A stretch of DNA of 64,000 nt from Pusillimonas sp. DMV24BSW_D. GTDB taxonomy: Bacteria > Pseudomonadota > Gammaproteobacteria > Burkholderiales > Burkholderiaceae_B. The notes beneath the pieces were generated by a model that had not been told where the DNA came from, made no database searches, and worked only from the letters and a program-made list of their open reading frames with translations. Position numbers and translations under genes: made by a program. Shown piece after piece: positions 41,767-64,000 of the stretch. Each line of letters opens with the position of its first letter. The first letter of the stretch is position 1. The stretch spans positions 248,001-312,000 of the forward strand of contig NZ_CP049990.1 in assembly GCF_011388195.1 (NCBI RefSeq), written 5' to 3'.

Positions 41767-41849
41767 GTTGCTCTCCTTTGGTTGATTCTTGTGTAATGCA
41801 CTTTCGTAAGCGCGCCTGATTGGCCGCTTGCTTGAAACGCCGAACTTAT

Positions 41850-43460: not shown

Positions 43461-43475
43461 AAGGTGTCTCCATGG

Positions 43476-44486: not shown

Positions 44487-44514
44487 CGCAGCCCTCCTTA
44501 CATCGAAGCGAGAA

Positions 44515-45267: not shown

Positions 45268-45308
45268 AGTGTCCTCGCTATAAATGCGTTAAGTGATCTG
45301 TGCTTAGA

Positions 45309-46805: not shown

Positions 46806-46815
46806 GCCTATTCCT

Positions 46816-47982
46816 CTAATTCGTCAAAATATGTATGGTGGCCACTGCCGAGTCGTCGCCCAACAGGCCACCGGCCATCTGCGCAAGACCCACTTTTGCG
46901 CCCGTCACCTGACGCTTACCAGCACGCCCTTCGACCTGCTCGGCGATCTCGACAATCTGGGCAACGCCCGTGGCGCCGACAGGATGGCCTCGTGCCGTCA
47001 AACCGCCCGAGACGTTGACCGGTATACGACCACCCAATGATGTCGCCTGCTGCTCGAGCAACTTGAAAGCTTCGCCCGGCCCGCACAAGCCAATGTCCTC
47101 GATATCGAGCAATTCTTGGGGTGCGGTGGGGTCGTGCACCTCGGCAAGCGACACGTCGTTAGGGCCGAGCCCCGCTTGTTCGAATGCCGTTTGCGCACAC
47201 CGTGCGGTAACGGACGGCCCGTCGCCGCGCTGGGCGTCGCCACCTTCCACGGCTGAGGCCGCTAGCCGGGCGCCCTTAAGACCATGACGTCTTGCAAAGC
47301 TTTCGCTGACCAACAGAAGCGACGCAGCACCGTCTGCGATGCCGCCGCACATGGCGCGCGTTAAGGGAGCCACCACCGTGCGGTCGGCAAGTACCTCATC
47401 AACCGTTAGCGCCTGGTGCACGGCGGCCATTTCATTCATTAACGCGTGAGCACGGTTCTTCACCACACACATGGCAAAGTGCTTTGGCGTGGCACCATAG
47501 CGCTCCATGTAACGCATGGCGCGCTCGGAGTTGAGATCCATAAAGACAGAGCGGCCGGCGCTGGTTGGCTGCCGATCGGACGCGGAAGCCAGCGCGCTCA
47601 TCGTCGCCTTGGGGTCATCGTGGGTCATTTTTTCGACGCCTAGAACCAGCACACAGTCGTACTGGCCGTAAGCGATGGAAGACCACGCCAGATGCACCGC
47701 ATCTGAGCCGCTGGAACACGCGTTTTTGACGTTGTGAATTCGAATGGGCCCCAAGCCTGCTCCGCCTAGCAAGACTTGCCCCAAGATCGTTTCCTGATTC
47801 TGCAGCAGGCCTCCAAAACCGTTGCCGACAAAGGCGGCCTCGATATCGGTAGGCTTGATGCCGGTGGCAGCCAACGTTCCTTTTAGAACCGGCGCGGCCA
47901 GGCTGGCCAAAGTGGACTCGGGCTGCCGGCCGAATTTTCCGACCTGCCCGCCGCACACCAGTACGGATTGCAAAGCCTTCAT
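46816..47982 (-). CDS. Thiolase-family protein (SCP2-thiolase type)
   Basis: A 388-residue thiolase. The nucleophile Cys lies in 'NVKNACSSGSDAVHLAWSS'. The C-terminal 'VNVSGGLTARGHPVGATGVAQIVEIAEQ' has the GHPxGATG motif and His. The start 'MKALQSVLVCGGQVGKFGRQPE' matches lipid-transfer/SCP2-type thiolases. It should cleave a 3-oxoacyl-CoA. It overlaps the next gene upstream by four bases. Confidence 0.92.
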   Translation of the reverse strand: MKALQSVLVCGGQVGKFGRQPESTLASLAAPVLKGTLAATGIKPTDIEAAFVGNGFGGLLQNQETILGQVLLGGAGLGPIRIHNVKNACSSGSDAVHLAWSSIAYGQYDCVLVLGVEKMTHDDPKATMSALASASDRQPTSAGRSVFMDLNSERAMRYMERYGATPKHFAMCVVKNRAHALMNEMAAVHQALTVDEVLADRTVVAPLTRAMCGGIADGAASLLLVSESFARRHGLKGARLAASAVEGGDAQRGDGPSVTARCAQTAFEQAGLGPNDVSLAEVHDPTAPQELLDIEDIGLCGPGEAFKLLEQQATSLGGRIPVNVSGGLTARGHPVGATGVAQIVEIAEQVEGRAGKRQVTGAKVGLAQMAGGLLGDDSAVATIHILTN

Positions 47983-48377
47983 TTCGCGTTAGCCTCATGG
48001 CGAATGGCTGCAGTGCCCTTCGCGGTTTGTGTGCCGTCAGCCTTCTCGGCTTTCAGTTCAAGATGGATGACATCGTCGAACGCCGCAATCTCGCACGTTA
48101 GCGTCAAGGGCTCTTCCGGATACACCGGAGCAGTGAACGTGATGTCAAGCGATTTCAGCCGCTCGGCGCCGTACTCGCGCGCAAGCAATTGGGCGAAGTA
48201 CGCCGTTGTCATGGGCCCTTGCTGAATCACTTGGTTAAAGCCGCACTCTTTGGCGAAATCCAGATCCACGTGAATGGGATTGGGGTCTTCGGTAGCCTCG
48301 GAAAACATGGCGATGGATTCGCGTGAAGACCCTGGCATTTGCACCTTGAAAACGGAATTGCCTACGGTAGCGTTCAT
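47979..48377 (-). CDS. MaoC-family enoyl-CoA hydratase
   Basis: A 132-residue hot-dog protein. 'SEATEDPNPIHVDLDFAKECGFNQVIQQGPMTTAYFAQLL' contains the Asp-x4-His hydratase motif (DPNPIH). It hydrates a trans-2-enoyl-CoA. A FAS1-like partner lies two bases upstream; such pairs often form one heterodimeric hydratase. Confidence 0.9.
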   Translation of the reverse strand: MNATVGNSVFKVQMPGSSRESIAMFSEATEDPNPIHVDLDFAKECGFNQVIQQGPMTTAYFAQLLAREYGAERLKSLDITFTAPVYPEEPLTLTCEIAAFDDVIHLELKAEKADGTQTAKGTAAIRHEANAK

Positions 48378-48379
48378 GC

Positions 48380-48781
48380 TCAGCTCCTTTTGATTATTCG
48401 GGTCAGCTCGCGCAACACCAGCTGACCATCGGCGGCGCGCTTGTAGTCGTACTCGACGTCAGCAATCCATAACGGGCCAGACTTAGTGGTTTTTTCTGTG
48501 ATCGTGACAACCCTGGCCGTGACTTCCATGCTGTCGTCCCACTGAATGGGGCTGAACCATTCGTACTTCTGGCCACCATGCAGCGCGCGATTACGCGGGA
48601 TATCGAGGTCGGTGAACAAGTTCACACCGTGTGCTTCCCCGCGCAGAAAGATCAGATAGGTTGGCGGAACATTTTCCGATTCCGACTGCAGGCCCATTGA
48701 GCGCAAGAACTTCTCCGCCAGGCCTTTATCGATTTTCAATGGATAGGGAGGGTAGACATGCCCCTGCATTTCCATTCTCAT
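48380..48781 (-). CDS. MaoC-like N-terminal (FAS1-type) dehydratase
   Basis: A 133-residue hot-dog-fold protein of the FAS1-like dehydratase type: 'PPYPLKIDKGLAEKFLRSMGLQ', then 'PRNRALHGGQKYEWFSPIQWDDSM'. It lacks the D-x4-H motif and likely supports the catalytic MaoC protein encoded next. The frame opens with a TTG at 48793; the ATG at 48781 has TGGAG 7 bases upstream and is preferred. First gene of the operon, 16 bases downstream of the two-tier operator. Confidence 0.85.
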   Translation of the reverse strand: MRMEMQGHVYPPYPLKIDKGLAEKFLRSMGLQSESENVPPTYLIFLRGEAHGVNLFTDLDIPRNRALHGGQKYEWFSPIQWDDSMEVTARVVTITEKTTKSGPLWIADVEYDYKRAADGQLVLRELTRIIKRS

Positions 48782-48796
48782 CACACGCTCCAAAAG

Positions 48797-48832
48797 TTTT
48801 TACGTTGATGTAAATTTACACGAGGGTAAAAA
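48797..48832. promoter_or_regulatory. Two-tier palindromic operator, copy 1
   Basis: A 36-bp site: outer arms TTTTTAC (48797-48803) and GTAAAAA (48826-48832), inner palindrome GTAAATTTAC (48810-48819), all symmetric about one centre with 6-base gaps. The same layout recurs at 53317-53352. It ends (minus-strand sense) 16 bases before the MaoC start codon, so it overlaps the promoter. The TetR gene at 51233 is the likely owner. Confidence 0.75.
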
Positions 48833-48974
48833 ATAAATCAACCAGTTTTTTATGAATGTGTAAAAAGAAATGAACCGTGGGAAAACGACGGCGGATCGGG
48901 GAGCCAGTCCTGCAAGGAAATGCAGGACGGACAGGCGATAGAGTTGTGCCGCAAGCGCCTCGTGTGGGCGTGCG

Positions 48975-49592
48975 TCACACGCCTCGTGAATCAGGACGGC
49001 GTCGCGTCGCTGTGCAACAACGGCTGATCGCCAAACCCAACAAAAAGGTACCTACGAACAGGCCGAACGAGCCGAGCACGCTGCGAAGTGCGATGCCCAG
49101 CGTGAGGGCGATAAGGCTGTAGAAGATTAGGGGCTCGGGCGGAAGTAGCCGCAGCAAGCGCGGTGCAAACGGCGCAAAGACGCCAAAGCACAGTACCGGT
49201 AGAGTAAAGAGCACACCTAACTCGGTGCCCGATAAGCCCAGACCCACCCTGATGGAATCAATCACCGGGCCAACACCAACCAGCGGGGCTCGCAAGTTCA
49301 CCGATACGTACAAAATGGTGAACAGCAGCAACAATTGCGCCGCGCGCCATTGACCCTTGTTGGTGCGGTTGCTGGTGCTGGTGCTCGTGCCGGCATCGTT
49401 CGGAGCACCGGCGCCCCGGCCATCCAGGCGATTTTTACCTCGACCCTCTGTAACGTCATCACCGACCGCATCCGCTGCGCGCTTCGCAAACTCGGTTTCA
49501 CGCCCAGATGCCATAGCAGATCCGGAAACAGGCTCCGACGACCGGCCAGTCGACCCAGGTATGCTTTTCGTGGTGTCTCTTTCAATACTCAT
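48975..49592 (-). pseudogene. MFS transporter (CynX/NimT-like), N-terminal fragment
   Basis: Starts well (ATG 49592 after GGGAGAAG) with an unusual 85-residue polar Ser/Thr/Arg-rich leader, followed by 'LLLLFTILYVSVNLRAPLVGVGPVI' and four to five membrane spans of the CynX-type MFS family. After about 'FLLGLAIS' the protein departs from the family and ends in an Arg-rich tail (RCCTATRRRPDSRGV) at 48975. Normal members have about 400 residues and twelve spans, so the gene is cut at roughly 49020. The part after the cut is the 5' flank of the catabolic operon. Confidence 0.65.
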
Positions 49593-49719
49593 CAACTTCT
49601 CCCAACCGCAGTTTGCCACAACATGGCGCAACCGCGATCTGCGGCACCTCCTCGGCCGACCGTCTCTGCTCCTTCTCAATAGAGGTTTTAAGTCTGCGTG
49701 CGCACCCTTCTAGATGGTG

Positions 49720-49953
49720 TCAGTTATTCCGACGCGGATACCCTTCATTGAGAATCCGCTTCCACACGGCCCTTTTTTCTTCTTCGGTGAAAAACACCCA
49801 GTTCGCCACTTCCATAACGGTGCGGCCGCAGCCGCGGCAGATGTCGTCGTAAAGCGTTGAGCACACCGCCACGCATGGCGAATCGCGCTCGTCGGGGTTA
49901 TAAGAGGGATCGCGTCCCGTTTCGTCGGGCGTCCACTTGCCGTTGTCGGCCAT
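49720..49953 (-). CDS. DUF1289 domain protein
   Basis: A 77-residue protein with 'SPCVAVCSTLYDDICRGCGRTVMEVANWVFFTEEEKRAVW', the DUF1289 pattern with four conserved Cys that may bind Zn or an Fe-S cluster. Function unknown; it is a common small proteobacterial protein. ATG 49953 has AGGAG 5 bases upstream; a Met nine codons earlier is less likely. Confidence 0.85.
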   Translation of the reverse strand: MADNGKWTPDETGRDPSYNPDERDSPCVAVCSTLYDDICRGCGRTVMEVANWVFFTEEEKRAVWKRILNEGYPRRNN

Positions 49954-50081
49954 AAAAACTCCTAATCCATGCAAGTGCAAAGGGGCGCCTGAGCCGTACC
50001 TGCCGCGCGCCTACCGTCGGAAGCTTCGGCACTCATGCGCAATCACGGTCAACCCTGCGAGCGCACACACTTTGGCGCTTC

Positions 50082-50116
50082 TAACAATAACAAGGCCGCC
50101 CCAACCAGGGACGGCC
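50082..50116 (-). terminator. Intrinsic terminator behind the metK fragment
   Basis: A 9-bp GC-rich stem (50094-50102 with 50108-50116, one G-T wobble) with a 5-base loop. In minus-strand sense it is followed by TTGTTATTGTT. Position, 78 bases after the native metK stop, fits a metK terminator left behind by the rearrangement. Confidence 0.55.
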
Positions 50117-50196
50117 CACCGAAGATCTGCACGAGAAAGCCGCCGGCGCTTTACCGCTTTTGCGATCAGACGCCTTCGCAAGCAGCGCCTTCGCGA

Positions 50197-50803
50197 TTAG
50201 GCCGCCTTCTTCAGCATGCACCTTATCGGTGGCTTCCCATGAGAACTCGGGTTCGGCACGACCGAAGTGGCCGTAGGCTGCCGTCTTGGCGTAAATGGGG
50301 CGCAGAAGGTCGAGCATATTGATAATGCCTTTCGGCCGCAGATCGAAGTGCTCGCGCACCAGCATAGAAATTTGCTCGTCACTGATGACGCCGGACCCAT
50401 AGGTATTGACCGTGATGTTGATCGGCTCGGCGACACCAATAGCATAGCTGATCTGCACCTGGCACTGGCTGGCCAGGCCGGCAGCCACAATGTTCTTGGC
50501 CACGTAACGTGCGGCATAGGCAGCCGAACGGTCGACCTTGGACGGATCTTTACCCGAGAAGGCACCGCCACCGTGCGGGCAAGCGCCGCCGTAGGTATCG
50601 ACGATGATCTTACGGCCCGTAAGCCCGCAATCACCCTGAGGGCCGCCAATTACAAAGATGCCCGTTGGGTTGATCATGTACTTGGTCTTGGCGGTAAGCA
50701 GACCAGGAGCAAAGCTGGGCTTGATGATCTCTTCGATAACCGCTTCGCGAATATCTGCTTGCGAAATATCGGGCGAATGCTGAGTGGAAAGCACCACCGT
50801 GTC
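50197..50803 (-). pseudogene. S-adenosylmethionine synthetase (MetK), 5'-truncated and frameshifted
   Basis: The last half of MetK: '[16 protein letters not shown]', '[25 protein letters not shown]', '[28 protein letters not shown]', '[26 protein letters not shown]'. The full enzyme has about 385-395 residues; roughly the first 180 are missing and the sequence stops being MetK at about 50803, exactly where an ABC binding-protein fragment begins on the other strand. At the 3' end a one-base shift after TDKVHA moves the frame past the native end, MLKKAA-stop at 50197. A functional metK must be elsewhere in the genome. Confidence 0.8.
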
Positions 50804-51133
50804 AATACGCCGCGAGATAACGCGTTCCGTGCTAACTATAAAGAGAACTTCCCTAACTGGTCACTTGACGTCTACGCCGTGCAGGGCTACGATGCCGCTC
50901 AGATGCTCGACGCCGGCCTGAAAGCCGTCAACGGCGACGTCAGCAAGAAAGACGCTATGCGCGACGCAATCCGCACTGCCAAGATCGACAGCCCACGCGG
51001 CGAGTTCACCTTGTCCAAGGCGGGCAACCCTGTGCAAGACATCTACTTGCGTAAAGTCGAAGGCGACGAAAACAAAGTTGTGAAAGTTGCCGTCGAAAAA
51101 CTGGCCGACCCAGCTCGCGGCTGCAAGCTGTAA
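50800..51133 (+). pseudogene. ABC substrate-binding protein, C-terminal fragment
   Basis: The last 111 residues of a Liv-type receptor: [19 protein letters not shown], 'LDVYAVQGYDAAQMLDAGLK', 'AKIDSPRGEFTLSKAGNPVQDIYLRKVEG', 'LADPARGCKL'. The same part of the intact protein at 40558-41766 reads [29 protein letters not shown] and DPARGCKL, so this is a paralogue. The open frame continues to the left through antisense metK, which is not real coding. The N-terminal 280 residues and start are missing. Confidence 0.75.
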
Positions 51134-51220
51134 TTCACAGGTCGTGCACGAAATAAGTGCACTAAGGGACGGCGAGCCGCACTAAAAAGCGTTCGCCGCT
51201 TTAAGTAAGTGGCGGCACCC

Positions 51221-51251
51221 AACGGCAAAGCGTCAACGGCGCTTTGCCGTT
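51221..51251. terminator. Bidirectional hairpin at the TetR gene end
   Basis: A perfect 12-bp stem (51221-51232 with 51240-51251) and 7-base loop that includes the TetR stop codon. Plus-strand side is followed by TTGCG with four T's in the right arm end, minus-strand side by GGGTGCC, so the U run is weak. Likely ends transcripts from both the fragment and the TetR gene. Confidence 0.5.
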
Positions 51252-51940
51252 TTGCGTGGGGCTTTGGCCTTGGCGGCGGGTGATTCGGAGGGAGGCAGCG
51301 CCTGCGCTGATGCTGCAACGGCCAAAGCATCGCCGGTATTTTGGCTTAACCCCTGGCTGACCAGGTTGAAGTAGGTATCGATAAGTTGTTCGATAGACAC
51401 TTCTTTGTCGGGCTTATACCAACGGGCCAGCCAGTTGCACATTCCCAGAATGCCGAAGGCGATCATCTTCGGGTCGCCAATATTCTGGAACTGGCCGGAA
51501 TCTTGACCTTCTTTGATGAGCGCAGTCCAGAGTTTTTCGTAGGTTTTCCACACGCGAGTCATGGATGACTGGACCGGATCGCTGCTGCCCATGATTCCAT
51601 CACGCAAGGTGATTGTCATTTCAAGGCAGTGACGGTCGAAACGATCGAGGTGGTTTTCCATCGCACGATGCAGCTTTTGTTCCGATGGCAGATCGCTGCT
51701 GACGATTTCTTCAAGCCCCGCAATAAGGCCGATGGCTTGCGGCTCGATAATGGCCAGAAGGAGCTCTGCGCGGTTCTTGAAATAATAATATAAGGCTTCG
51801 CGCTTGAGTCCAATGGCTTGTGCGACATCGTCCAAAGACGTATTGAAGAAGCCTTGTCTATCAAAAAGCTCGGTCGCAGTCTGAATGATTTCTTCACGTC
51901 TGCGCATGGACTTCGACAGAGGAGCGGTTGGGAGATTCAC
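51233..51940 (-). CDS. TetR/AcrR-family transcriptional regulator
   Basis: A 235-residue regulator. HTH: 'REEIIQTATELFDRQGFFNTSLDDVAQAIGLKREALYYYFKNRAELL'. The ligand domain has the type seen in fatty-acyl/aryl-CoA sensors ('LEMTITLRDGIMGSSDPVQSSMTRVWKTYEKLW'). The C-terminus has an Ala/Pro/Lys-rich tail (SPAAKAKAPRKTAKRR) beyond the usual 200. It lies between two operons that each carry the same 36-bp operator (48797 and 53317), so it likely represses both. Confidence 0.88.
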   Translation of the reverse strand: MNLPTAPLSKSMRRREEIIQTATELFDRQGFFNTSLDDVAQAIGLKREALYYYFKNRAELLLAIIEPQAIGLIAGLEEIVSSDLPSEQKLHRAMENHLDRFDRHCLEMTITLRDGIMGSSDPVQSSMTRVWKTYEKLWTALIKEGQDSGQFQNIGDPKMIAFGILGMCNWLARWYKPDKEVSIEQLIDTYFNLVSQGLSQNTGDALAVAASAQALPPSESPAAKAKAPRKTAKRR

Positions 51941-51990
51941 GACTTGTTTCAGTAGATTTTTAATACTTTTATCTTACCTTAAAGACCTGT

Positions 51991-53195
51991 TCAGGTGCCG
52001 TCATCAACTTTAATGATGACTGCCATAGCTGAGTCGCCCGCAGCGCATCCCACAAACAAGCCATAACCACCTCCGGTAATTACCAGCTGCTCGATCAATT
52101 CTATGATTGCGCGCAAACCCATGGGCGCCTGCGGATGCCCCCACACTAGTGAACAACCGAAGCGATTCATAGTTAAAGGATCAAGCCCCAGCTCTTTAGC
52201 CAGCACCAGATCATTCACGATGAATGGATTGTGCGTCTTTACAGCTGACAAGTCGCTGGCCTTCAAACCCGCAGCCTGCAGCGCCTTACGCGCAGCAGGA
52301 GCGGGAGCGGCCGGCATAAATGCCGGCTTGACTCGAGATTGGCCGAAAGACACGAGCCGGATATCAATCTTCGGGTCTTGAGATAGCTCGGCGGCCCGCT
52401 CTGCTGTGGTTACCACTATGGCGGCATTGCCGTCGGCGGGGTGTGTTTGTCCGCCGAACGTGACCGTGCCGCCGTCAAGCAGAGGCTTCAACTTCGCCAA
52501 GCCCGCTTCTGTGGTGGGGAAGATGCCCTCATCGCCTTGCAATACCGACTGCTCTCGCTTGAAGCGTGCATCGGGAACACTAAAGGGAAGCGTCATGAAG
52601 CGCCGCAGAAAGGCGCTATCGTTCTTGAGCGCTTCTTCATATTGCTGATAACGCACCAGCGTGAGCTCGTTCTGTTGCGCGGTAGTCAGGCCGTATTCGG
52701 CCGCAACATTCTCGGCCGTTTTCAACATGTTGACGCCTGTGTACGGGTCGCAGTCGAAGTTGTCCATTACCCAGTTTTCATGCTCGCGGGTACCGCCAGG
52801 CCCATGGGGCGCCGGATAGTAAATATGGGGCCCGTTCGAGACGCGGTCTGCCGCAATTGCCAGCGCAACCGTGACGTCGCCCTCGCGTAGCGAGGATGCC
52901 ACCGACTGAAGAAGCCGCGCACTGGTGGCACATGCCTGACTGATGGTGGGACCGCCAACCTGCTCGGAACCCATCAAGCCCATCAACCAGGGCAAACCAT
53001 AGAATGAGCCTTTTTGCGGCACCGATACGCCAACGCCGCATGGTCGAATGACCCGACGTCTATACTGCGACGCTGAAGCTCATTCCTGGCGACATGAGCG
53101 GCAAAACGCAGACTGTGCAAATGCGAAAAGCTGCCCTGCCAACGTGTAAACGGCGTGGACCAATAGGCTCCGTAAGGAATTGCGATGTTTGTCAC
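51991..53195 (-). pseudogene. Thiolase with a single-base frameshift
   Basis: The gene reads from a GTG at 53195: VTNIAIPYGAYWSTPF, 'SLRFAAHVARNELQRRSIDVGSFDHAAL' in one frame. Near 53030 the frame is lost (one G too few in a GG run), and the sequence goes on in the next frame as VSVPQKGSFYGLPWLMGLMG, with 'GGPTISQACATSARLLQSVASSL' (nucleophile Cys) and 'FGCSLVWGHPQAPMGLRAIIE' (GHPQAP). Together about 402 residues. Either a real null mutation or a sequencing error; the gene is otherwise intact. Confidence 0.8.
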
Positions 53196-53299
53196 GAGGC
53201 TTGGGCTCCGGTGCTAAGCTCAGTCTGGTGGCGCACCGTTTCTGCGCCCAGCCCAGAGGCTCCACCACTGACTACAACAGATTGTCCCTGCAACTCCAT
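53192..53299 (-). pseudogene. SDR gene remnant (N-terminus)
   Basis: ATG 53299 with AGGAG upstream starts MELQGQSVVVSGGASGLGAE, the cofactor-binding start of a HSD10-like short-chain dehydrogenase. After 23 residues the coding is lost and a stop comes at 53192, overlapping the thiolase GTG (GTGA). At least 220 residues appear deleted, with the start region and the translational coupling end joined. Confidence 0.6.
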
Positions 53300-53316
53300 G
53301 CTTACTCCTGATTTAG

Positions 53317-53352
53317 TTTTTACATTGGTGTAAATTTACAGTAAAGTAAAAA
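53317..53352. promoter_or_regulatory. Two-tier palindromic operator, copy 2
   Basis: Same architecture as at 48797: TTTTTAC (53317-53323), GTAAATTTAC (53330-53339), GTAAAAA (53346-53352), symmetric with 6-base gaps. It starts 18 bases upstream of the SDR-remnant ATG, matching the 16 bases at copy 1. Outside the conserved arms the gap sequences differ, so the arms look selected. Confidence 0.75.
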
Positions 53353-53410
53353 ACGGCGCAATACATTTCGCCTTTTTAAAAAGCGGGCGGGAGTTTCAGC
53401 AGTTCTCGGT

Positions 53411-53522
53411 GAACCGGTCGCGTCACGAATCGCTTGTTCTGAAAATCGCTTGCCGTACGAATCGATTGCTCTGGAAACTGGTTACCTTGAAAGCCGGTTG
53501 CCTTGAGAACCGATTGTCTTTA
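53411..53522. repeat. Seven 16-bp degenerate tandem repeats
   Basis: Blocks at 53411, 53427, 53443, 53459, 53475, 53491 and 53507 all have 16 bases with no spacer. Consensus RAAYCGNTTGCCTTGA; A2, G6 and T8 are identical in all seven, and position 14 is T in six. Sixteen is not a multiple of three, so it is not a protein repeat. It fills the leader between the operator at 53317 and the SDR gene at 53556. Confidence 0.8.
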
Positions 53523-53555
53523 TCGAATCAGTCTACGTAAAAGAAGGAAGCACGC

Positions 53556-54383
53556 ATGAAGACCTTGTCTGGACAGGTTGCCCTCGTATCAGGGGCGGGA
53601 CGCGGAATAGGTAGAGCCATAGCGTTGAAACTGGCAAGCGCTGGCGCACGGCTCGTAGTAAACGACCTCGATCAGGAAGAGGCCGAAGCGGTAAGAAAAG
53701 AGATTGAAGGGCTAGGAGGCCAAGCAGTAGTTTGTGACGGGGACGTTACCGCTGCCGACTTTGGAGAGCGCTTCGTACGGGTTGCAATCGATAACTACGC
53801 AGGGCTGGACATTATTATTAATAACGCCGGCTATACCTGGGACAGTGTCATCCAGAATATGAGTGACGAACAGTGGTATGCCATTATTGACTGTCACTTG
53901 ACTGCACCGTTTCGTATTCTTCGTGCGGCTCAGCCGGTGATCAAGGGGCTGGTGCGAGCGGACCAAGACGAAGGCAAAGGCCACCACCGTAAGGTGGTCA
54001 ATATTTCGTCCATTACTGCACTGTCTGGCCAGGCCGGACAAGTCAATTATGGCGCTGCCAAGGCCGGCATCATCGGGCTGACCAAGTCGCTGGCGAAGGA
54101 GTGGGGGCGCTTGAAGACCAACGTCAACTGTGTGGTATTCGGTCTGATCGAAACCCGCCTTACGGCTACAAGCAGCGAGGCAGACGCAAGCATACAAGTG
54201 GGGCAGCAACGCATTTCGGTAGGCATTCACCCCGACTACCTCGACAAACTGCAAAGCGGGATCCCGCTTGGATACGCCGGCTCTCCGGAAGACGCGGCTA
54301 ACGCGGTGTACCTGTTGTGCCTTCCGGAATCAAACTATATTTCGGGCGAGACTGTCTTGTGCTCCGGCGGCTATACGGGCTAG
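53556..54383 (+). CDS. Short-chain dehydrogenase/reductase
   Basis: A 275-residue classical SDR. 'VALVSGAGRGIGRAIALKLASAGARLVVNDLDQEEA' binds NAD(H); NNAGYTW, then catalytic Ser in 'NISSITALSGQAGQVNYGAAKAGIIGLTK' with Tyr and Lys; C-terminal 'SNYISGETVLCSGGYTG'. It resembles 3-oxoacyl-ACP/CoA reductases. AAGGAAG precedes the ATG. Likely the 3-hydroxyacyl-CoA dehydrogenase of the nearby aryl-CoA pathway. A block of seven 16-bp repeats lies directly upstream. Confidence 0.9.
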   Translation: MKTLSGQVALVSGAGRGIGRAIALKLASAGARLVVNDLDQEEAEAVRKEIEGLGGQAVVCDGDVTAADFGERFVRVAIDNYAGLDIIINNAGYTWDSVIQNMSDEQWYAIIDCHLTAPFRILRAAQPVIKGLVRADQDEGKGHHRKVVNISSITALSGQAGQVNYGAAKAGIIGLTKSLAKEWGRLKTNVNCVVFGLIETRLTATSSEADASIQVGQQRISVGIHPDYLDKLQSGIPLGYAGSPEDAANAVYLLCLPESNYISGETVLCSGGYTG

Positions 54384-54408
54384 GTTCGAGAAGCGGCAGC
54401 CGCTCAGT

Positions 54409-54708
54409 TCACAAGGCATCCAACGCAAGTCGCAAGGCGGCATGATAAGTAGGCAGTAAGCGCTGTTGCTGCTCTGTAAAGTTTTGCCAGGCAAGCTGCT
54501 GCTCGGCGCTGCGCTGCTGAGGCTCGGCCCAGACCGCATCCGGAAAATGAGTATCTAGCGACCAGCGAGGAATGACATGCCAATGCAAGTGCGGCACCTG
54601 GTTGCCGAATTGCGCCAGGTTCACCTTGAGCGGCACCAGCTCTTTGCGCATTACTGTTTCCACCAACCACACCGCATTCATTAAATGCTCACGCGCCGGC
54701 CCCCGCTG
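54409..54708 (-). pseudogene. HIT-family protein, N-terminus lost
   Basis: The last 95 residues of a histidine-triad protein: 'NLAQFGNQVPHLHWHVIPRWSLDTHFPDAVW' with the HxHxH active site. The family usually has about 140 residues, and in-frame homology (AREHLMNAVW) stops at a TGA at about 54711, where the IS3 sequence begins. A Met at 54681 could start a 90-residue product, but without the first half of the fold it is unlikely to work. Confidence 0.7.
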
Positions 54709-54777
54709 TCAGAATAGTTGGAACCTCTACTGATGTTAGAGTTTGAATGTCCAACCCGGGGCGGTGAGAAGGTTCCC

Positions 54778-55938
54778 ATGAAGTATTCCCCTGAGCGCCG
54801 TGAGGCCATCTTGGCCAAGCTGGAGGCGCCTTACAACCGTACGGTCAGCGAGCTGGCGACTGAAGAAGGGATTTCGGCCGCCACGCTGTATAACTGGCGC
54901 AAACAAGCCCGTCGTACGGGACGTTTACTGCCGAACGCATCAACGAGCACAGAAGGCTGGAGCTCCCGGCACAAGTTCAATGCCGTGCTGGAGACGGCCG
55001 CATTGACCGAGGAAGAGTTAGCGGAATACTGTCGGCGTCGTGGTTTGTATCCCGAACAGATTCGTCGTTGGCGCGCCAGTTGCGAGCAGGCCAATGAGCG
55101 GGCGGACCTGGCGGCAGAACGACAATCAGAATCAACCAAGGCGGAACGTAAACGGATTCGAGAGCTGGAACGGGAGCTGCGCCGCAAGGAGGCTGCGTTG
55201 GCTGAAACGGCGTACTACAAGCCTACGAAGGCCGCGCCGAAAGTTAAGCCTGAACTGGCAGAACCCATCAAAGCGATGATCGAAGAATCGCCGTCGTTTG
55301 GGTATCGGACGGTCGCCTATCTGCTAGGCATGAACAAGAACACGGTGCAGCGCATCTTCCAGCTCAAGGGTTGGCAGGTGAAGAAGCGTGCCATTGGATT
55401 CCGGCCACGTATTCAAGCCTTGCCTTCAGTGGCGAGTGCGCCGAATGAGCGCTGGTCGACTGATTTGTGCCGGATCTGGGCTGGCCGGGATGGTTGGGCG
55501 ACCCTGGCGCTAGTCATCAACTGCCACACGCGTGAACTGCTCGGCTGGCACCTGTCGCGCAGCGGCAAAGCCACGACCGCTGGCAGCGCGCTGGAACACG
55601 CCTTGATCGCCCGCTTCGGCACCCTGGGCCGTGTTGCTGAGCCATTCCTGCTACGGTCGGACAATGGCCTCGTTTTTACGAGTCGCAGCTACACGGCGCT
55701 GGTACGCAGTTACGGCCTGCGCCAGGAGTTCATCACACCGCACTGCCCGCAGCAGAACGGTATAGTGGAACGGGTGATCAGGACGCTTAAAGAGCAATGT
55801 GCCCACCGGCACCGGTTTGAAACCTTGCAGCATGCCAGCCGCGTGATCGGCGACTGGATACGCTTTTACAACCACCGGCGTCCACATAAGGCGCTGAACA
55901 TGAAAACCCCGGCTGAGGCATTCGCATTAGCCGCATGA
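54778..55938 (+). CDS. IS3-family transposase, single long frame
   Basis: A 386-residue protein that holds both OrfA and OrfB parts in one frame. HTH: 'REAILAKLEAPYNRTVSELATEEGISAATLYNWRKQ'. A coiled coil (residues about 105-145) leads to the integrase core with Asp229 (STDLCRIW), Asp295 (RSDNGLVF) and Glu331 (IVERVIRTL), the DD35E spacing. The TTG at 54718 gives a longer frame but is unlikely. I could not find matching terminal repeats, so the element's limits are open; its left edge is near 54709 where it cuts the HIT gene. Confidence 0.88.
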   Translation: MKYSPERREAILAKLEAPYNRTVSELATEEGISAATLYNWRKQARRTGRLLPNASTSTEGWSSRHKFNAVLETAALTEEELAEYCRRRGLYPEQIRRWRASCEQANERADLAAERQSESTKAERKRIRELERELRRKEAALAETAYYKPTKAAPKVKPELAEPIKAMIEESPSFGYRTVAYLLGMNKNTVQRIFQLKGWQVKKRAIGFRPRIQALPSVASAPNERWSTDLCRIWAGRDGWATLALVINCHTRELLGWHLSRSGKATTAGSALEHALIARFGTLGRVAEPFLLRSDNGLVFTSRSYTALVRSYGLRQEFITPHCPQQNGIVERVIRTLKEQCAHRHRFETLQHASRVIGDWIRFYNHRRPHKALNMKTPAEAFALAA

Positions 55939-56687: not shown

Positions 56688-57527
56688 TCACGATAGCCAT
56701 GAACGAACCTCCGCGTGGCTCAGCAACGATAAACATGAAAGCGCATCACGTTTATAGGCGCCGCGGTCAATAAACATATGCGACTCATGCAGCATCATGG
56801 ATCGCAACGGGGTATGGCCCACATATGTCAATGAAAGGCTCGGATGCATTGGATTTTGGCTGATCAATAGCATACCGGCTGGCGTAGACACTTCCCTAGA
56901 AGCGTTCAGATCCAACTTTTTCCACAACCGCCTGCCCCAGAGGAGAGGTTCCAAGGTTCCTGCCAGAGTTTCCTCTGTGAGCTCGTCGTCTGTCAGGATC
57001 CGTCGTGGCGACAAATCCAGAGGCAGGCCTGCCAGCTCGTCCAGCCAATTGTGCTGATCGGTACTGCCCGTCATGATCTCAGCATGTGCGACATGAAACC
57101 GGGCAGGGCCCTCGCCGACCGTGATCACATACGGCAACTCCTTAACGAGGGGAAATAATTCTTCGCGCAGCTCTTCACGGGTGCCACTATCCAGTGCGAA
57201 GACCCAACGTCCTCCATTGCTGACTAGGAGCTTAGCTGATTGACGGCATGCGTATGGCTGCGAAACCTCATAGAGATAGTCCAGAAGCATGCCCTCGTGA
57301 TTACCGCGCACAGCGAAGAACCACGGCTTATGAAGTAGCCGCAGGCATGCCATGGAATCAGGACCGCGATCGATTAGATCACCTACCGAAAATAGCCTGT
57401 CTACGGCTGTATCGAATCCGACACGGGCGAGCTCAATTTCTAGTAGATCTAAGCATCCGTGTAAGTCGCCGACGACGAAGTCGCGACCCGAAGTATTTGC
57501 GGACACCTTCAGATGTAGGCGTGTCAT
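56688..57527 (-). CDS. Metallophosphoesterase (PP1/lambda-phosphatase-like)
   Basis: A 279-residue calcineurin-like phosphoesterase. Metal-binding motifs: GDLHGC (residues 22-27), VGDLIDRG (near 48) and 'AVRGNHEGMLLDYL' (near 74). 'VAHAEIMTGS' and a later His near 'YVGHTPLRS' give the remaining ligands. It matches the lambda-type serine/threonine phosphatases; protein or nucleotide phosphates are possible substrates. ATG at 57527 follows AAGGAAGAG. Confidence 0.9.
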   Translation of the reverse strand: MTRLHLKVSANTSGRDFVVGDLHGCLDLLEIELARVGFDTAVDRLFSVGDLIDRGPDSMACLRLLHKPWFFAVRGNHEGMLLDYLYEVSQPYACRQSAKLLVSNGGRWVFALDSGTREELREELFPLVKELPYVITVGEGPARFHVAHAEIMTGSTDQHNWLDELAGLPLDLSPRRILTDDELTEETLAGTLEPLLWGRRLWKKLDLNASREVSTPAGMLLISQNPMHPSLSLTYVGHTPLRSMMLHESHMFIDRGAYKRDALSCLSLLSHAEVRSWLS

Positions 57528-57796: not shown

Positions 57797-58612
57797 ATGT
57801 CAGACTTAACGGGGAGCGAGCGGCGTAAGCTGGAAAAGCTACTTGGAATGGGTGGCGGCTACGTGTTGAACTTTTCCGACCGTACTTTTGGCGACTTCTT
57901 TGACGAATACCGGGTTGAGATCGACGCGGAGCGCTACCGCGTCAGGGGCACGTCGAAAGCCAATCGCATGCGTACGCATTGGGAGCTGGACGCGAACCAT
58001 GTTGTCGGTCGAGTAATCGGTGGCCTAATCGAATACGCCAATGACGAGAGTTGCTTCGGCGATAGCAATCCGGTGTTGATCGAGGACTGCCGAAAGATTG
58101 CACAGCGCTTACTCAGCGACCAGCCCGTGGCCGAGTTAGACGCGCTGGCAGCGACCGCCGACGAGCATGACTTTGAGGTGGTGGCGGAGCACGTCCGCGA
58201 AGCCATCGAGAAGAATCAGCCTGAGGGTGCGTTGGATCGGCTGCATACGTTCGTGATCAAGTTCGTGCGCATCGCCTGTGAGCCTCACGGTATCGAGGTC
58301 AACCGCGACAAGCCGCTGCACAGCGTGTTCGGAGAGTACGTGCGCGCCCTACGCGACGGTGGTCACCTCGAATCGGCTATGACCGAGCGCATCTTGAAGT
58401 CCTCAATTTCGGTGCTGGAAGCGTTCAACGATGTGCGCAACAACAAAAGTCTGGCGCATGACAATCCGATCCTCAACTACGAAGAAAGCTTGTTGATCTT
58501 TAACCACGTCGCAGCCTCGGTCCGGTTTATCAAATCGCTTGAGGCCAAGATCAAGGCCAAGGCGATGACAATAAGAGCGGTCAGTGCGTGGGATGACAGC
58601 ATTCCGTTCTGA
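57797..58612 (+). CDS. Abortive infection family protein (HEPN-type, Abi C-terminal)
   Basis: A 271-residue protein. The C-terminal half (about 135-260) fits the Abi_C/HEPN family: 'RLHTFVIKFVRIACEPHGI', then 'AFNDVRNNKSLAHDNPILNYEESLLI'. The pair Arg214 and His221 forms an R-x6-H motif as in HEPN RNases. The N-terminal 130 residues are of no recognised type ('GDFFDEYRVEIDAERYRVRGTSKANRM'). Such proteins stop phage growth by killing the host cell. RBS GAGAGGG precedes the ATG. It is divergent from the phosphatase gene. Confidence 0.8.
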   Translation: MSDLTGSERRKLEKLLGMGGGYVLNFSDRTFGDFFDEYRVEIDAERYRVRGTSKANRMRTHWELDANHVVGRVIGGLIEYANDESCFGDSNPVLIEDCRKIAQRLLSDQPVAELDALAATADEHDFEVVAEHVREAIEKNQPEGALDRLHTFVIKFVRIACEPHGIEVNRDKPLHSVFGEYVRALRDGGHLESAMTERILKSSISVLEAFNDVRNNKSLAHDNPILNYEESLLIFNHVAASVRFIKSLEAKIKAKAMTIRAVSAWDDSIPF

Positions 58613-58860: not shown

Positions 58861-59709
58861 ATTGGGCATGGTATTATTTGTGGCATTGCTACAATTTAAT
58901 TTTTTAAGTGACTGTAAATAAAGGATTTAATTCTACTATTTACAATAGAGTGGGAATGATTGGTCTTCGGAACGGCTTCACCACCTTCCTTGTGACCCAT
59001 TCCACCTACAAGTGCACCGGCGATCATCTTAGTTCAGATGGCCGGATACAGCTCGCCCGGCAATAGCACTTCGCAGCCTTCTACAGTAGGATTCTTACGC
59101 GGGTGGCAGCCGCGATCTCGACCCCATGCATGCCTTTGTATGTTGCTCGGCAGCTAAAGTAGCGAGCAATCAATCTCTTGAGATGTGCGCCGCCAGGCAC
59201 CTTAATGATCATTCAGCTTCTCCTATTCGCTAGAATGCTGTGATTCGCTATCTCGGAGTACTCGCTAACAAGTATGCCGACTTCAGTCATTGTCCGAGAA
59301 CCGTCCGTAAATTCACAGCCAATGGTTTCGCGTAGACCGCTCGGGATCTTTTTGAAAATAGCAGTACATAGGTAAATTCACTCAGTGTCGCAGTTCGACC
59401 CTGAGCTGCCGTTCAACATTACCAAAAGCGGTCATTACTGAGACGATCAATTGAAATTACAAGGCTGATCCGCCCCATCGGCGCACGGCCCGGGCAGGTG
59501 AATCCGCGGAGTTGGGTCACTCGGTTCAATCGTATTGTCAGGCTCAAGCCGCAGCTTCGCGCGCATCCATCGGCCCTTTAGAGTTTAGAAAGTCTGTCGA
59601 CAACGTAGAATAATCCTTCGAATCAACGATTGCGCCGACAAAACGGACCCCTGCGCATGCCGCGCCACTCCGTTTTTCAAATAGAAGCCGGCCACCAAGG
59701 GAGAGAGAA
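58861..59709. other. 849-bp gene-free stretch
   Basis: No frame with coding-like features on either strand. Short AT-rich runs occur at 58880-58960. At 59589-59600 the 12-mer AAAGTCTGTCGA reappears, identical to that at 36836-36847. The last 100 bases should contain the promoter of the next operon. Probably degraded acquired DNA. Confidence 0.4.
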
Positions 59710-61356
59710 TTGAAAGTCGACACCGCGTGGGTTGAACCTCCGTACTCTATCGGCGGATTAGATCACCTCGGCGCACAGGCGCCGTGCGTCCTAATTTACG
59801 GCCAGCTTTTGCCGGGTATCACGAACGTCACCGACCGGGCACGCTATTACTCCTTCTATCCGTGGCTCATTTGGTCGCTCGCTCAACGCTTTCCGGATGA
59901 CGAGGACGAGATATCGTTCGTCGAACGTTTTCGGCGGGCCGATTGCCTGTTCACGTTGATCGCCGAACACCACGCGCAATGCACCGACAAGATCAGCGAG
60001 CGCCACGGCGCAGCGATGGTCGGTCGGCAGAAACTGGTGAGCGCGGTTCAACGAGTACGGAGCGGCGAGACACTGAAGCTCGTCAAGTTCACCGCCAACG
60101 ATTCCGCAGACCGGTACTTCATGAATCGTATGGGTGGACTTTCGCAGTATTACGCGGGCACGCTCGCCGACCTGCGCGTGCTGGAGGGCGGCAGAAAGCC
60201 ATGGTTTCGATTCACCAAGGAAGTCGGCAAGCCAATTGCCGAAGCTTTTGATGCGTCGGTGCCAAGCGAACCTTTCTGGGACATCCTTGAGCGTGGTGAG
60301 GTTACTGACGCGGGCCTTAGGCAGTTGCATGCGTTTTGCCCATGTCATCTTCGAAACGCGGTATCGAGTGAGCGCGAGCAGCTCATCGACATCTATTTCG
60401 ACCGGCAACGTGAGTACGGCGAAGAAGGCATTCAGCGTAAGCGTTCGCTGGCGCTGATCCAGCGCCTCATCGGCAGCCTGTCGCCAGGTTTCGAGTTTGG
60501 CGAATACGTATTTCGCGCCACCGTGTATGGCAACGCGCTGCCTGACGCCACGAGCTGGAGCATCCCGGCCGATCTGACATCCACGCGTGAGAATTGGGCC
60601 ATCTACGTCCGCAACGATCTGCTATCGGTTGCAGTTCAGACGATCTTCGCGCTTGCCTTGAACAAGTTGTCCCCGCAGACCACGGGCGAGCGTTACGTGT
60701 ACGCCACGGTCGAGGCTTTCGCGAAAGCATTCGAGGAATCGGACCACGTGGCGGGCTTCGTTGCCGACACGGGATGCGCGACGTTTGGCGCGTGGCTATT
60801 GAACATCGAATCGGCATTGCCAGCGCTCGGCGAGTGGTCCGCAGACGGTCACGAGATGCCGCTGGCTCAGGACATAGTTTCGTCCTGGGGGCGCGCGAGC
60901 GACTCTGCGTTGCTTGCGTCGGCCATGCGAGTGCTCGCGATCCTCGCTATTCGCGACGATCCGAATCGCGCGCCCTATAAGGGGCTCGCGATCACGCCAC
61001 AAGCACTACAGGATTACCCTATTAATCTCGATACGTTCCGACGCAAGGCTGCGGCGTGGAGTGAAATGCCATTAGGCGACGTGGTCTACGAAGTTGTTGC
61101 GTGGTGTATGAATACGCATTTGCGAGTTTCATTGCGTAAACTTCATCGTACGAGTTCAGCGACGTTCCGCTTCCGTCCTTCCGAGCTCGGTTTGCAACTG
61201 ACGGATGGAAACATACCGGCGCCCTCCAATACCAGGCCGCGCTTCCGTCAAGCGGTACAGATTTTGATGGATATAGGCGCGGTAGTGCGTGATGACAACA
61301 AACAGATGTCATTGAGCGCAGAAGGAAAGCAATTGATGGAGGCCGTCAGTGCCTGA
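59710..61356 (+). CDS. Large protein of unknown function, coupled to a PLD-type protein
   Basis: A 548-residue soluble protein I do not recognise. It begins MKVDTAWVEPPYSIGGLDHL with 'GQLLPGITNVTDRARYYSFYPWLIWSLA', and has three helical regions and no Cys cluster, Walker motif or obvious nuclease signature. The last 60 residues look like a winged-helix ('FRQAVQILMDIGAVVRDDNKQMSLSAEGKQLM'), so it may bind DNA or sense something. TTG start with GGGAGAG upstream. The next gene's GTG overlaps its end by 8 bases, so the two are made together. Confidence 0.75.
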   Translation: MKVDTAWVEPPYSIGGLDHLGAQAPCVLIYGQLLPGITNVTDRARYYSFYPWLIWSLAQRFPDDEDEISFVERFRRADCLFTLIAEHHAQCTDKISERHGAAMVGRQKLVSAVQRVRSGETLKLVKFTANDSADRYFMNRMGGLSQYYAGTLADLRVLEGGRKPWFRFTKEVGKPIAEAFDASVPSEPFWDILERGEVTDAGLRQLHAFCPCHLRNAVSSEREQLIDIYFDRQREYGEEGIQRKRSLALIQRLIGSLSPGFEFGEYVFRATVYGNALPDATSWSIPADLTSTRENWAIYVRNDLLSVAVQTIFALALNKLSPQTTGERYVYATVEAFAKAFEESDHVAGFVADTGCATFGAWLLNIESALPALGEWSADGHEMPLAQDIVSSWGRASDSALLASAMRVLAILAIRDDPNRAPYKGLAITPQALQDYPINLDTFRRKAAAWSEMPLGDVVYEVVAWCMNTHLRVSLRKLHRTSSATFRFRPSELGLQLTDGNIPAPSNTRPRFRQAVQILMDIGAVVRDDNKQMSLSAEGKQLMEAVSA

Positions 61357-63904
61357 TTCGATTTCTCTTTTGAATGTCATCAAGCAAGGCGGCTTCGACG
61401 CATCGTTGATCACCTCGTTCAACGCGAGTCTGCCCTTCTACGAGGAGGTAGTGCTGCGTCGTCTGGTGGCGGCAGACTGTCAGCAAAACATCGTCTTGAT
61501 GGATTACGCGCAATGCAGTTTGAGCTGGCAGTCCGAGGCGACCCGTCCGAGGCTAGCAGGCACAGCGTATTCGCTCGTGCCGGTCAGCGTGCCCGGGGCG
61601 TTCCATCCGAAGATCTGCATTTTGGCCGGCAAGAAGAAGGCGGCGGTTCTCGTCGGCAGCCACAATCTGACGCTGTCGGGCTTTGGCTACAACCGGGAGA
61701 TCACGAACTGGGTACACGTGACCGACGATAAGGATCGGGAGGGCACCGCGTTGCTGGACTCGGTGTGGCAGATGGGGCGCGAATGGATCGAACTCGCACG
61801 CGAGCATGTGCCTCCCTCCCTAATTGAAGCGGTGCTTTCCTTCTCCAAAAGCGTGGCACCATTGTCGTCGCCGGGGGGGGCAGCCACTACGACCGTCGCG
61901 TTGCATCAAAGCCCGGGAAGAGCGCCGCTCATCGAGCAGATCGGCGCGCGTGTGAAAGGCGAAGTTCGCAGGATCGGGGTGACTGGCGCGTTCTTCGATA
62001 GCGACTTGGCTTTCGTCGCGCATCTGCACGAACGGTGGCCGCAGGCAGATGTGGTCGTCGCAATCGATCCGGAAACCGTGCACTTGCCAAGAATGCGTGA
62101 GGTGCAGGCGCGTTTCGTGGACGCGAGGCTTCTCTGGACGACCGCCGGAAATCGCGGCGATAAGTACCTGCACGCGAAGGCGCTTTACATCGAGCAGACG
62201 CATGGCGATGGGAACGCATTCATTTCCGGAAGCGCCAACCCCAGCCGCCCCGCTTGGATGGGCAATCGAAGCAGCGCGAATGTCGAGGCGGTGCTGATGC
62301 GCATGGGCCCGGACGCGCAGGCCACGGCAGAGGCGCTAGGTTTGTACGGCATGTTCGCGCTCCCAGCGCTTTCGGCCAGCGAGCTCGAGGCCACGGCTGC
62401 ACGAAGTGTCGCTGAAATACGCACGACCAATGAATCTGCCGAGCGCTTCTGGATAGGTGTGGCGGCAAGCCCCAACGAACTGCGAATAGCGACTTCGGGC
62501 CCGGCCATTGAGCTTGGCAGTGCCAATCTGTTGGGCGACAGTTTGGACGTGATTCAATCAAATATCGCCGTCACTCGGACGGGAGACGTCCTGAGTGTTC
62601 CCGTCTCCGTCGATATGAAGCTGGTCCGCGCGTGCGACTTTTTCATGAGTAGCGAGCGCGTGGCAAGGGCGATGATTGCGCACCCAAATTTGCTGACGAC
62701 GGCGACGCAATCGGCGCATCGTCAGGTTCGCGATGCGCTGGGGGCATTGGACCCGTCCGGTGAAACCATTTCGGAGATGCTCAAGGCCGTCGAAGATGCA
62801 ATTTTTGAGCCAGCCGCAGAAGAAGAAGTGCAGAACGAAGTGCGATCGCGGCGTGGATCGGCGCAGGCCGGCACAGCGAGTGGCGGCCGGCCCGACACAT
62901 TGGAAATCAGCGTCAGCGAGCTTCGTCAGGCTAGGAAACGCCGTCGTCTGGTCGAATCCGCCGATATCGTCACTCTGATCGACCTGCTGTCCCGAAAAAT
63001 CGGCCAGGAGCTACAGACGCCGTCGATCGTGCCTGTGGACCGGTCAGGCCGAACCGAGGAAGAGCAGGTCAATCAGGACGACGACCCGGAGCAATTGGAC
63101 GACACGCCGTACGTTGCATCCCAGGCTCAGGCTATCCAAGATGCCGAGGTCGCACGGCGGGTTGCCAGAAAAGTGACGAACCTCATCAAACGGATGCTTT
63201 TGAAGCTGGCGGAGGCCGACCAACCCGACACCAAGGCGCGGGCGCTCGTTCAACTCATCGCCGTAATTTCGCTCGTGAAAGAGCTGGTGCGTATCGAGCG
63301 CTTGCCCCGTTGGCGAATGGCGCGCGAGTTCCTCGTTTACGAGGCCGACCGCCGCCGCTTGCTAGATGAATCCATGCGGTGTTTATTCAGTTCCAGAACG
63401 CGGCTCATAAGCACACTGACGGACGACACCGACTCTGAATCCGAGGAAGCGATTCAGCTCCGTGTGCTGCTGTTGTGGCTGGCATGGAGTATTGGCGACA
63501 AGGTTCCGGAGTCGTCAGTCGAGGCGTTCGATCCGAGCGGTCGGAATGAACAGTTGCGCGCCAAGGCGATGTTCCTCTCCCTCGCGCCCCCTGTTGCCGG
63601 CGACGACGCTGCGAGTGACGAACTCAGGCGCTACACCGCGGCGACGCTTCGGCCCAATCCTTTGGACGCTGCGCGCGCTGACAGATGGATTCGGCTCACC
63701 AACGAGTTTGGCCGGTACTGGAACAGGGAGTTGTCCGATGCGCCGCGAATCGAAATAGGCGGCTGTTGCATCGTGGGAGACGGCAGCTATCCTCGCGTCG
63801 TCGCAGAGGTCCACAATGAACTGGTCGGATTCTGGGATTTCGGGTGCATCCGGTCCTTCAGACAAGACTTTGTGATTGCGGTTCAGCCGGAAGCGGGGTT
63901 CTGA
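61349..63904 (+). CDS. Phospholipase D-like nuclease-type protein (851 aa)
   Basis: Two HxK motifs in one chain: His86-Pro-Lys88 with downstream GSHN (103-106), and His275-Ala-Lys277 with downstream GSAN (294-297); this is the pseudo-dimer layout of PLD enzymes. The first motif lacks the usual acidic residue four after Lys. The following 550 residues have no recognised domain; residues about 590-640 are acidic and helical (DDDPEQLDDTPYVASQAQ). PLD nucleases of this kind act in restriction and DISARM-like systems. GTG start (RBS GGAGG) coupled to the previous gene. The system may continue past the window end. Confidence 0.8.
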   Translation: MPDSISLLNVIKQGGFDASLITSFNASLPFYEEVVLRRLVAADCQQNIVLMDYAQCSLSWQSEATRPRLAGTAYSLVPVSVPGAFHPKICILAGKKKAAVLVGSHNLTLSGFGYNREITNWVHVTDDKDREGTALLDSVWQMGREWIELAREHVPPSLIEAVLSFSKSVAPLSSPGGAATTTVALHQSPGRAPLIEQIGARVKGEVRRIGVTGAFFDSDLAFVAHLHERWPQADVVVAIDPETVHLPRMREVQARFVDARLLWTTAGNRGDKYLHAKALYIEQTHGDGNAFISGSANPSRPAWMGNRSSANVEAVLMRMGPDAQATAEALGLYGMFALPALSASELEATAARSVAEIRTTNESAERFWIGVAASPNELRIATSGPAIELGSANLLGDSLDVIQSNIAVTRTGDVLSVPVSVDMKLVRACDFFMSSERVARAMIAHPNLLTTATQSAHRQVRDALGALDPSGETISEMLKAVEDAIFEPAAEEEVQNEVRSRRGSAQAGTASGGRPDTLEISVSELRQARKRRRLVESADIVTLIDLLSRKIGQELQTPSIVPVDRSGRTEEEQVNQDDDPEQLDDTPYVASQAQAIQDAEVARRVARKVTNLIKRMLLKLAEADQPDTKARALVQLIAVISLVKELVRIERLPRWRMAREFLVYEADRRRLLDESMRCLFSSRTRLISTLTDDTDSESEEAIQLRVLLLWLAWSIGDKVPESSVEAFDPSGRNEQLRAKAMFLSLAPPVAGDDAASDELRRYTAATLRPNPLDAARADRWIRLTNEFGRYWNRELSDAPRIEIGGCCIVGDGSYPRVVAEVHNELVGFWDFGCIRSFRQDFVIAVQPEAGF

Positions 63905-64000
63905 CAGAGGGCCGTAGTATCGGTCATCGTCCTCAACTGCCGCTATCTTCCGATAGAGTAACAGCGGTCTGAACCGCTCCGGGAATCGTGGAGGCCGATT

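Follow-up and report, generated by a model that had tools for sequence, protein, structure and literature searches.

Azaca is the described system closest to the locus analyzed here. It consists of ZacA, ZacB and ZacC and is credited to Millman et al. 2022 (PMC10952713) and listed as a defence system (PMC10952713, PMC12926258), with ZacC described as a superfamily 1/superfamily 2 (SF1/SF2) helicase (PMC12278908). We analyzed a 64,000-nucleotide stretch of the genome of Pusillimonas sp. DMV24BSW_D (the window; bases 248001-312000 of a single 3.19-Mb contig) that contains two overlapping genes, A and B, of which B encodes a phospholipase D (PLD) protein. Judged by sequence comparison, the A-B pair is a helicase-less relative of the ZacA-ZacB part of Azaca, rather than a wholly undescribed system.

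We found that PADLOC models of Azaca matched both proteins. For the window B, the best models were, in order, ZacB (E = 2.1e-11), PDC-M27B (2.5e-10), DrmC (3.1e-5) and PbeA (0.0007). The ZacB and PDC-M27B models were both matched by all B members compared (8/8, including the window B; E<=0.01), and 63 of 73 A proteins matched the ZacA model at the same threshold (best 2.5e-6). At this threshold, the PDC-M27 models gave no match to any of the 73. When profiles were compared with hhalign, B aligned with ZacB over 270 columns confined to the PLD part (probability 98.2, E = 2.9e-14), and A aligned with ZacA over 49 columns around the motif LxPGxTxxxxRxRYxxFxPW (probability 67.5, E = 5e-5). A preliminary description of this DNA held that neither protein fits a named system. 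That was too strong, because the Azaca models match both. Our literature search found no description of the helicase-less pair itself.

The pair and Azaca have in common the order of the first two genes, a homologous PLD pseudo-dimer and the motif in the first protein. They differ in that ZacC is absent beside the window pair, in that A has ~550 amino acids compared with ~390-440 for ZacA, and in that B has ~850 compared with ~620-710 for ZacB (the longest with an uncertain start), with the first part of B alone alignable. The ZacA model gave matches in 6 of 398 genomes drawn from the phylum. It was matched over its whole length in four; the remaining two belong to the A family studied here. 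The Azaca loci used for comparison had full-length ZacB and ZacC matches. ZacA, ZacB and ZacC were consecutive in three of the four (L115, L117 and L118), and PADLOC confirmed ZacB in three and ZacC in four. The ZacA model had no match in the window's own genome at E<=0.001, and a control matched nowhere. We did not assign the pair to Azaca because ZacC, one of the defining features, is missing. The PDC-M27B model, from a PADLOC candidate system, also matches B, but the PDC-M27C models match helicases, which are absent from the A-B pair.

We found that A and B occur together. A genome scan with an A profile built from a five-sequence alignment gave 127 relatives, of which 80 were kept. B directly followed A in 73/80 of these loci. 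On plasmids, A was present in 10 records and B in 23, and the two were side by side in 9 of the 10 records with A. Profile searches also found adjacent A and B in Streptomyces, Cupriavidus and the archaeon Halorussus, and, with the order reversed, on a Rhizobium plasmid. In one Lysobacteraceae locus (L038:10001-12878), A was intact and B was reduced to its C-terminal part, with the PLD part missing. Six loci had fragments of A in which no B was found (L051, L066, L073, L075, L080 and L084; L075 is cut by the contig end). These sequence data point to A and B forming a two-gene unit, and the count across genomes bears out the two-gene module proposed in the preliminary description as far as the pairing is concerned.

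The 8-base translational overlap given in that description was confirmed from the coordinates of the open reading frames (ORFs; Table 1). We compared the position of the B start in 80 A-B pairs (7 plasmid and 73 genome loci). A start codon for B was available at an overlap of 8 bases in 24/80 pairs, of 4 bases in 32/80 and of 11 or 14 bases in 20/80. Of the rest, one had such a start at an overlap of 23 and one at 1, and two had no start in the tested range. The ORFs of many A relatives begin at the same aligned residue as the window A. The overlap is a stable trait and suggests coupled translation. Neither promoter-like nor terminator-like sites were commoner around the pair than in shuffled sequences. 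At L119:7393-10789 the order is B then A. Here A is related (hhalign E = 3e-20), and the overlapping upstream 573-amino-acid ORF resembles, on visual inspection, a B of reduced length (GSVNAT...NVEI), with an hhalign E of only 0.042 and probability 1.3. In Halorussus, B is followed by a gene for a protein of 1403 amino acids without a PADLOC match at E<=1e-5.

We found that the pair is widespread and moves between genomes. Its hosts include Pseudomonadota, Acidobacteriota, Myxococcota and Nitrospirota as well as other phyla. In the draw of 398 genomes from the phylum, 8 gave a match, six of them a strong one. In a tree (a quick FastTree with long branches), Beta- and Gammaproteobacteria and one Acidobacteriota member are mixed around the window protein. 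Occurrence within the window's family is sporadic: 3/268 genomes gave a match, of which the window's own was the only whole-protein match and the other two were partial. There was no match in four other genomes of the same genus. One viral contig, which is proviral (L131), matched A. B matched no phage record in a search made with B only. We compared 32 kb around the window pair with a 21.6-kb locus of Paraburkholderia metrosideri. The sole alignable block (E<=1e-5) was window 59568-63961, with 88.7% identity; the A proteins are 89% identical. Blocks restricted to the pair were also found between L009 and L077, L077 and L083, L031 and L033, and L094 and L102; longer common blocks joined L024 with L025, L064 with L065, and L089 with L099. 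These comparisons point to a two-gene unit. In the window itself, 41239-55667 is 99.97% identical to another genome of the genus (G160), 41239 being merely the start of the compared stretch. The two diverge at 55667, inside a transposase gene of IS3/IS481 type (54718-55938), and the pair therefore lies in DNA that is not found there in G160.

We found that B begins with a PLD pseudo-dimer, in agreement with the double-HxK arrangement read earlier from the sequence. Pfam PLDc_2 matched B in two stretches (4.7e-9), and PLD was the only domain named above cut-off by the family libraries. We aligned 67 full-length B proteins (ORFs of at least 700 amino acids; the truncated or split B of L036, L053, L085 and L101 and also L044, L090 and L100 were left out). 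H86, N106, E117, H275, K277, N297 and E313 were invariant (67/67), and K88 was present in 66/67, with one K88R. B thus combines a PLD fold with a pair of HxK(x)nN motifs, as is typical of nucleases of the superfamily. The aspartate of the classical HKD motif was absent at position 93 in 67/67 and present at position 282 in 5/67. The C-terminal barrel-like domain was absent from several of eight aligned B proteins.

The structure model of B (pLDDT 82.3, pTM 0.61) gave 44 Foldseek matches in the PDB at E<=0.001. The best was Tdp1 (E = 7.9e-10; TM ~0.5 by target length), a monomeric PLD pseudo-dimer. Tdp1 has HxK...N in both halves and, like B, has no aspartate where the first motif of a classical HKD protein would carry one. 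It differs from B in being a eukaryotic enzyme of ~430 residues in its solved chains, with 10-14% identity and without the helical and barrel domains. The PLD nuclease fold of B is also that of the restriction enzymes SauUSI (1.3e-4), BfiI (1.7e-4) and R.NgoAVII/CglI (NgoAVII R 1.6e-3, above the E<=0.001 threshold). SauUSI (7clg) matched B in sequence at E = 0.001 with the 67-row profile, and gave no match with an 8-row profile. In SauUSI, CglI and NgoAVII, the PLD domain is coupled to a helicase or ATPase, but none was recognized in or beside the pair, and neither the DEAD-family ATPase nor the methyltransferase that neighbors CglI and NgoAVII lies directly beside it. DISARM DrmC and Dpd DpdK likewise contain a PLD domain, and the DrmC match to B is weaker than that of ZacB. 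Unlike in those systems, PADLOC recognized no DrmA, DrmB or Dpd partner beside the pair among five window proteins (the pair included) and seven downstream proteins. Based on its fold and relatives, we suggest that B cleaves DNA.

A is mostly alpha-helical, with the conserved N-terminal motif GLDxLGxQ...LLPGITNVTxRxRYYxFYPW. Its structure model was confident (pLDDT 91.3, pTM 0.90) and consistent with the winged-helix-like end noted in the preliminary description, a helix-strand-strand-helix unit (Table 1). In a 73-row alignment (ORFs of at least 480 amino acids, with L100, a near copy of L099, left out), T508, P510, R511 and D521, in or beside this unit, were invariant. No named family for A was found above cut-off in Pfam or NCBIfam, nor any in PHROGs. 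Matches to ACT_3, TetR_C_20, DpdK (NCBIfam, 0.071) and phrog_788 were below cut-off or weak and were dropped. A had no significant sequence match to solved structures.

The gene pairing, homology, catalytic residues, mobility and neighborhood were observed directly, and on them we build the following model. On balance we lean towards A-B being a self-contained, horizontally moving anti-phage (or anti-mobile-DNA) two-gene module, a helicase-less sister of Azaca, with B as a PLD nuclease and A as a sensor or regulator. B would be the effector, its two HxK halves folding into one PLD active site of the Tdp1, BfiI and SauUSI kind, and, if it follows the chemistry established for the superfamily, would cleave DNA in a metal-independent reaction via a phosphohistidine intermediate. 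A, whose translation is probably coupled to that of B, may bind B and nucleic acid through its helical body and winged-helix end, sense the target, and license B on foreign or replicating DNA only. Because there is no ATPase partner in the pair, it would either work without a helicase or borrow one; we consider the former more probable, given that A and B are transferred on their own. A bolder and rather improbable version is a helicase-free, ATP-free, restriction-like system of two proteins. A would by itself recognize a structure in phage DNA or a joint between protein and DNA. It would then turn on the Tdp1-like site of B, which would attack the 3'-ends or the protein-linked DNA of phages or plasmids during their replication. 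Two genes would in this way replace the helicase machinery of Azaca, DISARM and CglI.

We found restriction genes near relatives of the pair at a frequency above expectation. Clusters resembling hsdR (c2 and c4) were present in 16/80 genome loci, a DrmMI-like methylase cluster in 11/80 (four of these also with a DrmD/DpdE-like helicase cluster) and SoFic in 5/80; each neighbor cluster was named from one scanned representative. As an internal control, we searched the genomes of 41 loci for HSDR_N and found 57 matches in 228 Mb, two of them under the family cut-off. Inside the loci themselves (0.87 Mb) there were 8 matches compared with 0.25 expected, an excess of ~31-fold. The Poisson P of 3e-10 is too sharp, because related loci are not independent and because we chose the 41 loci (mostly long contigs, picked after the neighbor map was made). 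Contigs were identified by agreement of positions and of hsdR-like ORFs with those of the loci rather than by name. Seven hsdR-like loci lie outside this set (L024, L050, L052, L054, L057, L077 and L085). In a general draw from the phylum, 58/100 genomes had HSDR_N. In L024, L025 and L059, the pair is located between S/M-type genes and hsdR, all on one strand, and in L050 and L052 it is beside hsdR-like genes.

Two other neighborhoods were observed. In L121, A is at the contig end and is directly preceded by genes for a DrmD-like helicase, a IIG-type methylase and DruE-like and GajB-like proteins, an order that resembles ARMADA type II as presented in PMC12458937. A SoFic-type Fic gene is just 5' of the pair in L131, L055, L087 and L095; this cluster was named from L087, and the gene on the proviral contig L131 was identified by eye.

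These neighborhoods might indicate that A-B is an accessory of an adjacent helicase-driven system (type I restriction, or DISARM/ARMADA-like sets of helicase and methylase) that would supply the ATP-driven translocation that B lacks. The pairs inside or beside type I sets, the hsdR-like and DrmMI-like clusters and the gene order in L121 favor this idea. However, the partner varies from locus to locus, the pair alone is held in common with P. metrosideri, and 33 of the 41 loci had no HSDR_N match inside, so that the link to restriction is only a tendency. The window's own genome had no HSDR_N match at all, and the nearest restriction genes on the downstream side are ~14.6 kb away, behind a Tn7-like element. 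We consider this role unlikely. Overlapping starts and occurrence on plasmids and a proviral contig could also fit a toxin-antitoxin (addiction) pair that retains a mobile element or plasmid, with A restraining a toxic nuclease B. L038, with an intact A and only the C-terminal part of B, and the six loci with A fragments and no B found are consistent with this. In our judgement both proteins are large for such a pair, and they are homologous to Azaca, which PMC10952713 and PMC12926258 list as a defence system; we consider addiction improbable. It is far less probable still that the pair is a decayed Azaca that has lost ZacC. The A-B order is that of ZacA and ZacB in L115, L117 and L118, but ZacC profile matches were found in only 4/87 pair loci, 4.9-9.9 kb upstream of A and never adjacent to B. 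The spread over phyla and the catalytic residues, intact in 67/67 B proteins apart from the one K88R, indicate a lineage and not a broken copy of Azaca.

Several observations weigh against a self-contained defence module, and its defence function is that of a candidate. The missing HSDR_N matches, in the window's genome and in most of the 41 loci, count here as well, and PADLOC recognized none of the immediate neighbors of the window pair. In 2/7 plasmid loci viewed, the pair has an upstream SNF2 gene on its own strand, so that in some hosts it could work together with a helicase. The PLD subunits of CglI and NgoAVII depend on an ATPase partner (PMC4267653, PMC5737866); a conserved Walker A motif was absent from both A (matches in 2/73 rows, at scattered places) and B (7/67 rows, likewise scattered). 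The best fold match of B is to a repair enzyme, Tdp1. Matches at E<=0.001 also included polyphosphate kinases, a vaccinia PLD protein and a phosphatidylserine synthase, so the substrate cannot be read from the fold alone. The homology of A to ZacA is limited to one motif, the window A alone matched the PADLOC ZacA model weakly (0.003), and the A model had no fold match at E<=0.001 (Foldseek, PDB and viral models). A B relative on a Roseomonas plasmid (L106) had no recognized A, and B-only loci are under-counted because loci were fetched by A. Among the A-fetched loci examined, neither of the outcomes that the preliminary description named as arguing against defence was seen: homologues occurring singly in housekeeping regions, or a match to a family of metabolic enzymes. 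The L106 B adjoins genes annotated as 7-cyano-7-deazaguanine synthase and TatD hydrolase, which we take to resemble the Qat system.

The window neighbors proposed earlier, an Abi/HEPN gene and a phosphatase, proved to be Abi_C and metallophosphoesterase genes (Table 1). The suggestion of a defence-rich island held in part: family loci lie near restriction genes above expectation, but the immediate neighbors of the window pair were those that PADLOC did not recognize, in a genome without HSDR_N. The helicase or methylase suggested to follow past 64000 was not directly next to the pair. The first gene there is an opposite-strand AAA ATPase without a PADLOC match, followed by a Tn7-like transposition cluster with TnsD/TniQ proteins. 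This element (L003:3567-13855; ~66.5-76.9 kb of the extended window) has inverted ends and begins ~2.6 kb to the right of the pair; we rejected it as carrier of the pair, which lies outside those ends. Genes for a ResIII helicase-like protein and a type III methyltransferase start ~14.6 kb after B and are not part of the unit. They precede genes for an OLD/AriA-like ATPase and a UvrD/GajB-like helicase (L003:15545-18649 and L132:651-7576 for this group of genes), a short type I methylase gene, and then glmS (identified by eye). glmS is the usual Tn7 site. A repeat, CGACAGACTTTAT, has two exact copies near glmS (extended positions 90985 and 91005), an exact inverted copy at window 36834 and an inverted copy with one mismatch at 59587, 123 bases 5' of gene A.

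Table 1. Features of the A-B locus, in window positions
Feature	Position	Strand	Basis
Metallophosphoesterase gene	56688-57527		Pfam 1.7e-10
Abi_C protein gene	57797-58612		Pfam 2.6e-13
Shine-Dalgarno-like AAGGGAG, 6 bases 5' of the A TTG	59697..59703	+	Read from sequence
Gene A, 548-aa ZacA-related protein	59710..61356	+	ORF; TTG start
Winged-helix-like C-terminal unit of A, residues 512-547	61243..61350	+	Model: helix-strand-strand-helix
Overlap of A stop and B start, 8 bases	61349..61356	+	ORF coordinates
Gene B, 851-aa ZacB-related PLD protein	61349..63904	+	ORF; GTG start
PLD pseudo-dimer of B, residues ~1-330; H86-K88-N106-E117 and H275-K277-N297-E313	61349..62338	+	Pfam, Foldseek, conservation
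Beta-sandwich-like domain of B, residues 366-444	62444..62680	+	Model secondary structure
Helical domain of B, residues 586-792, after low-confidence linker	63104..63724	+	Model
C-terminal beta-barrel-like domain of B, residues 795-847	63731..63889	+	Model

SauUSI, CglI and Azaca all combine their PLD nuclease with a helicase or ATPase. A widespread two-gene lineage lacking such a partner would reveal a minimal set of sensor plus nuclease. It would also add a system that is close to invisible to the current ZacA model, and would offer a simple subject for experiments on the unexplained ZacA/ZacB half of Azaca.

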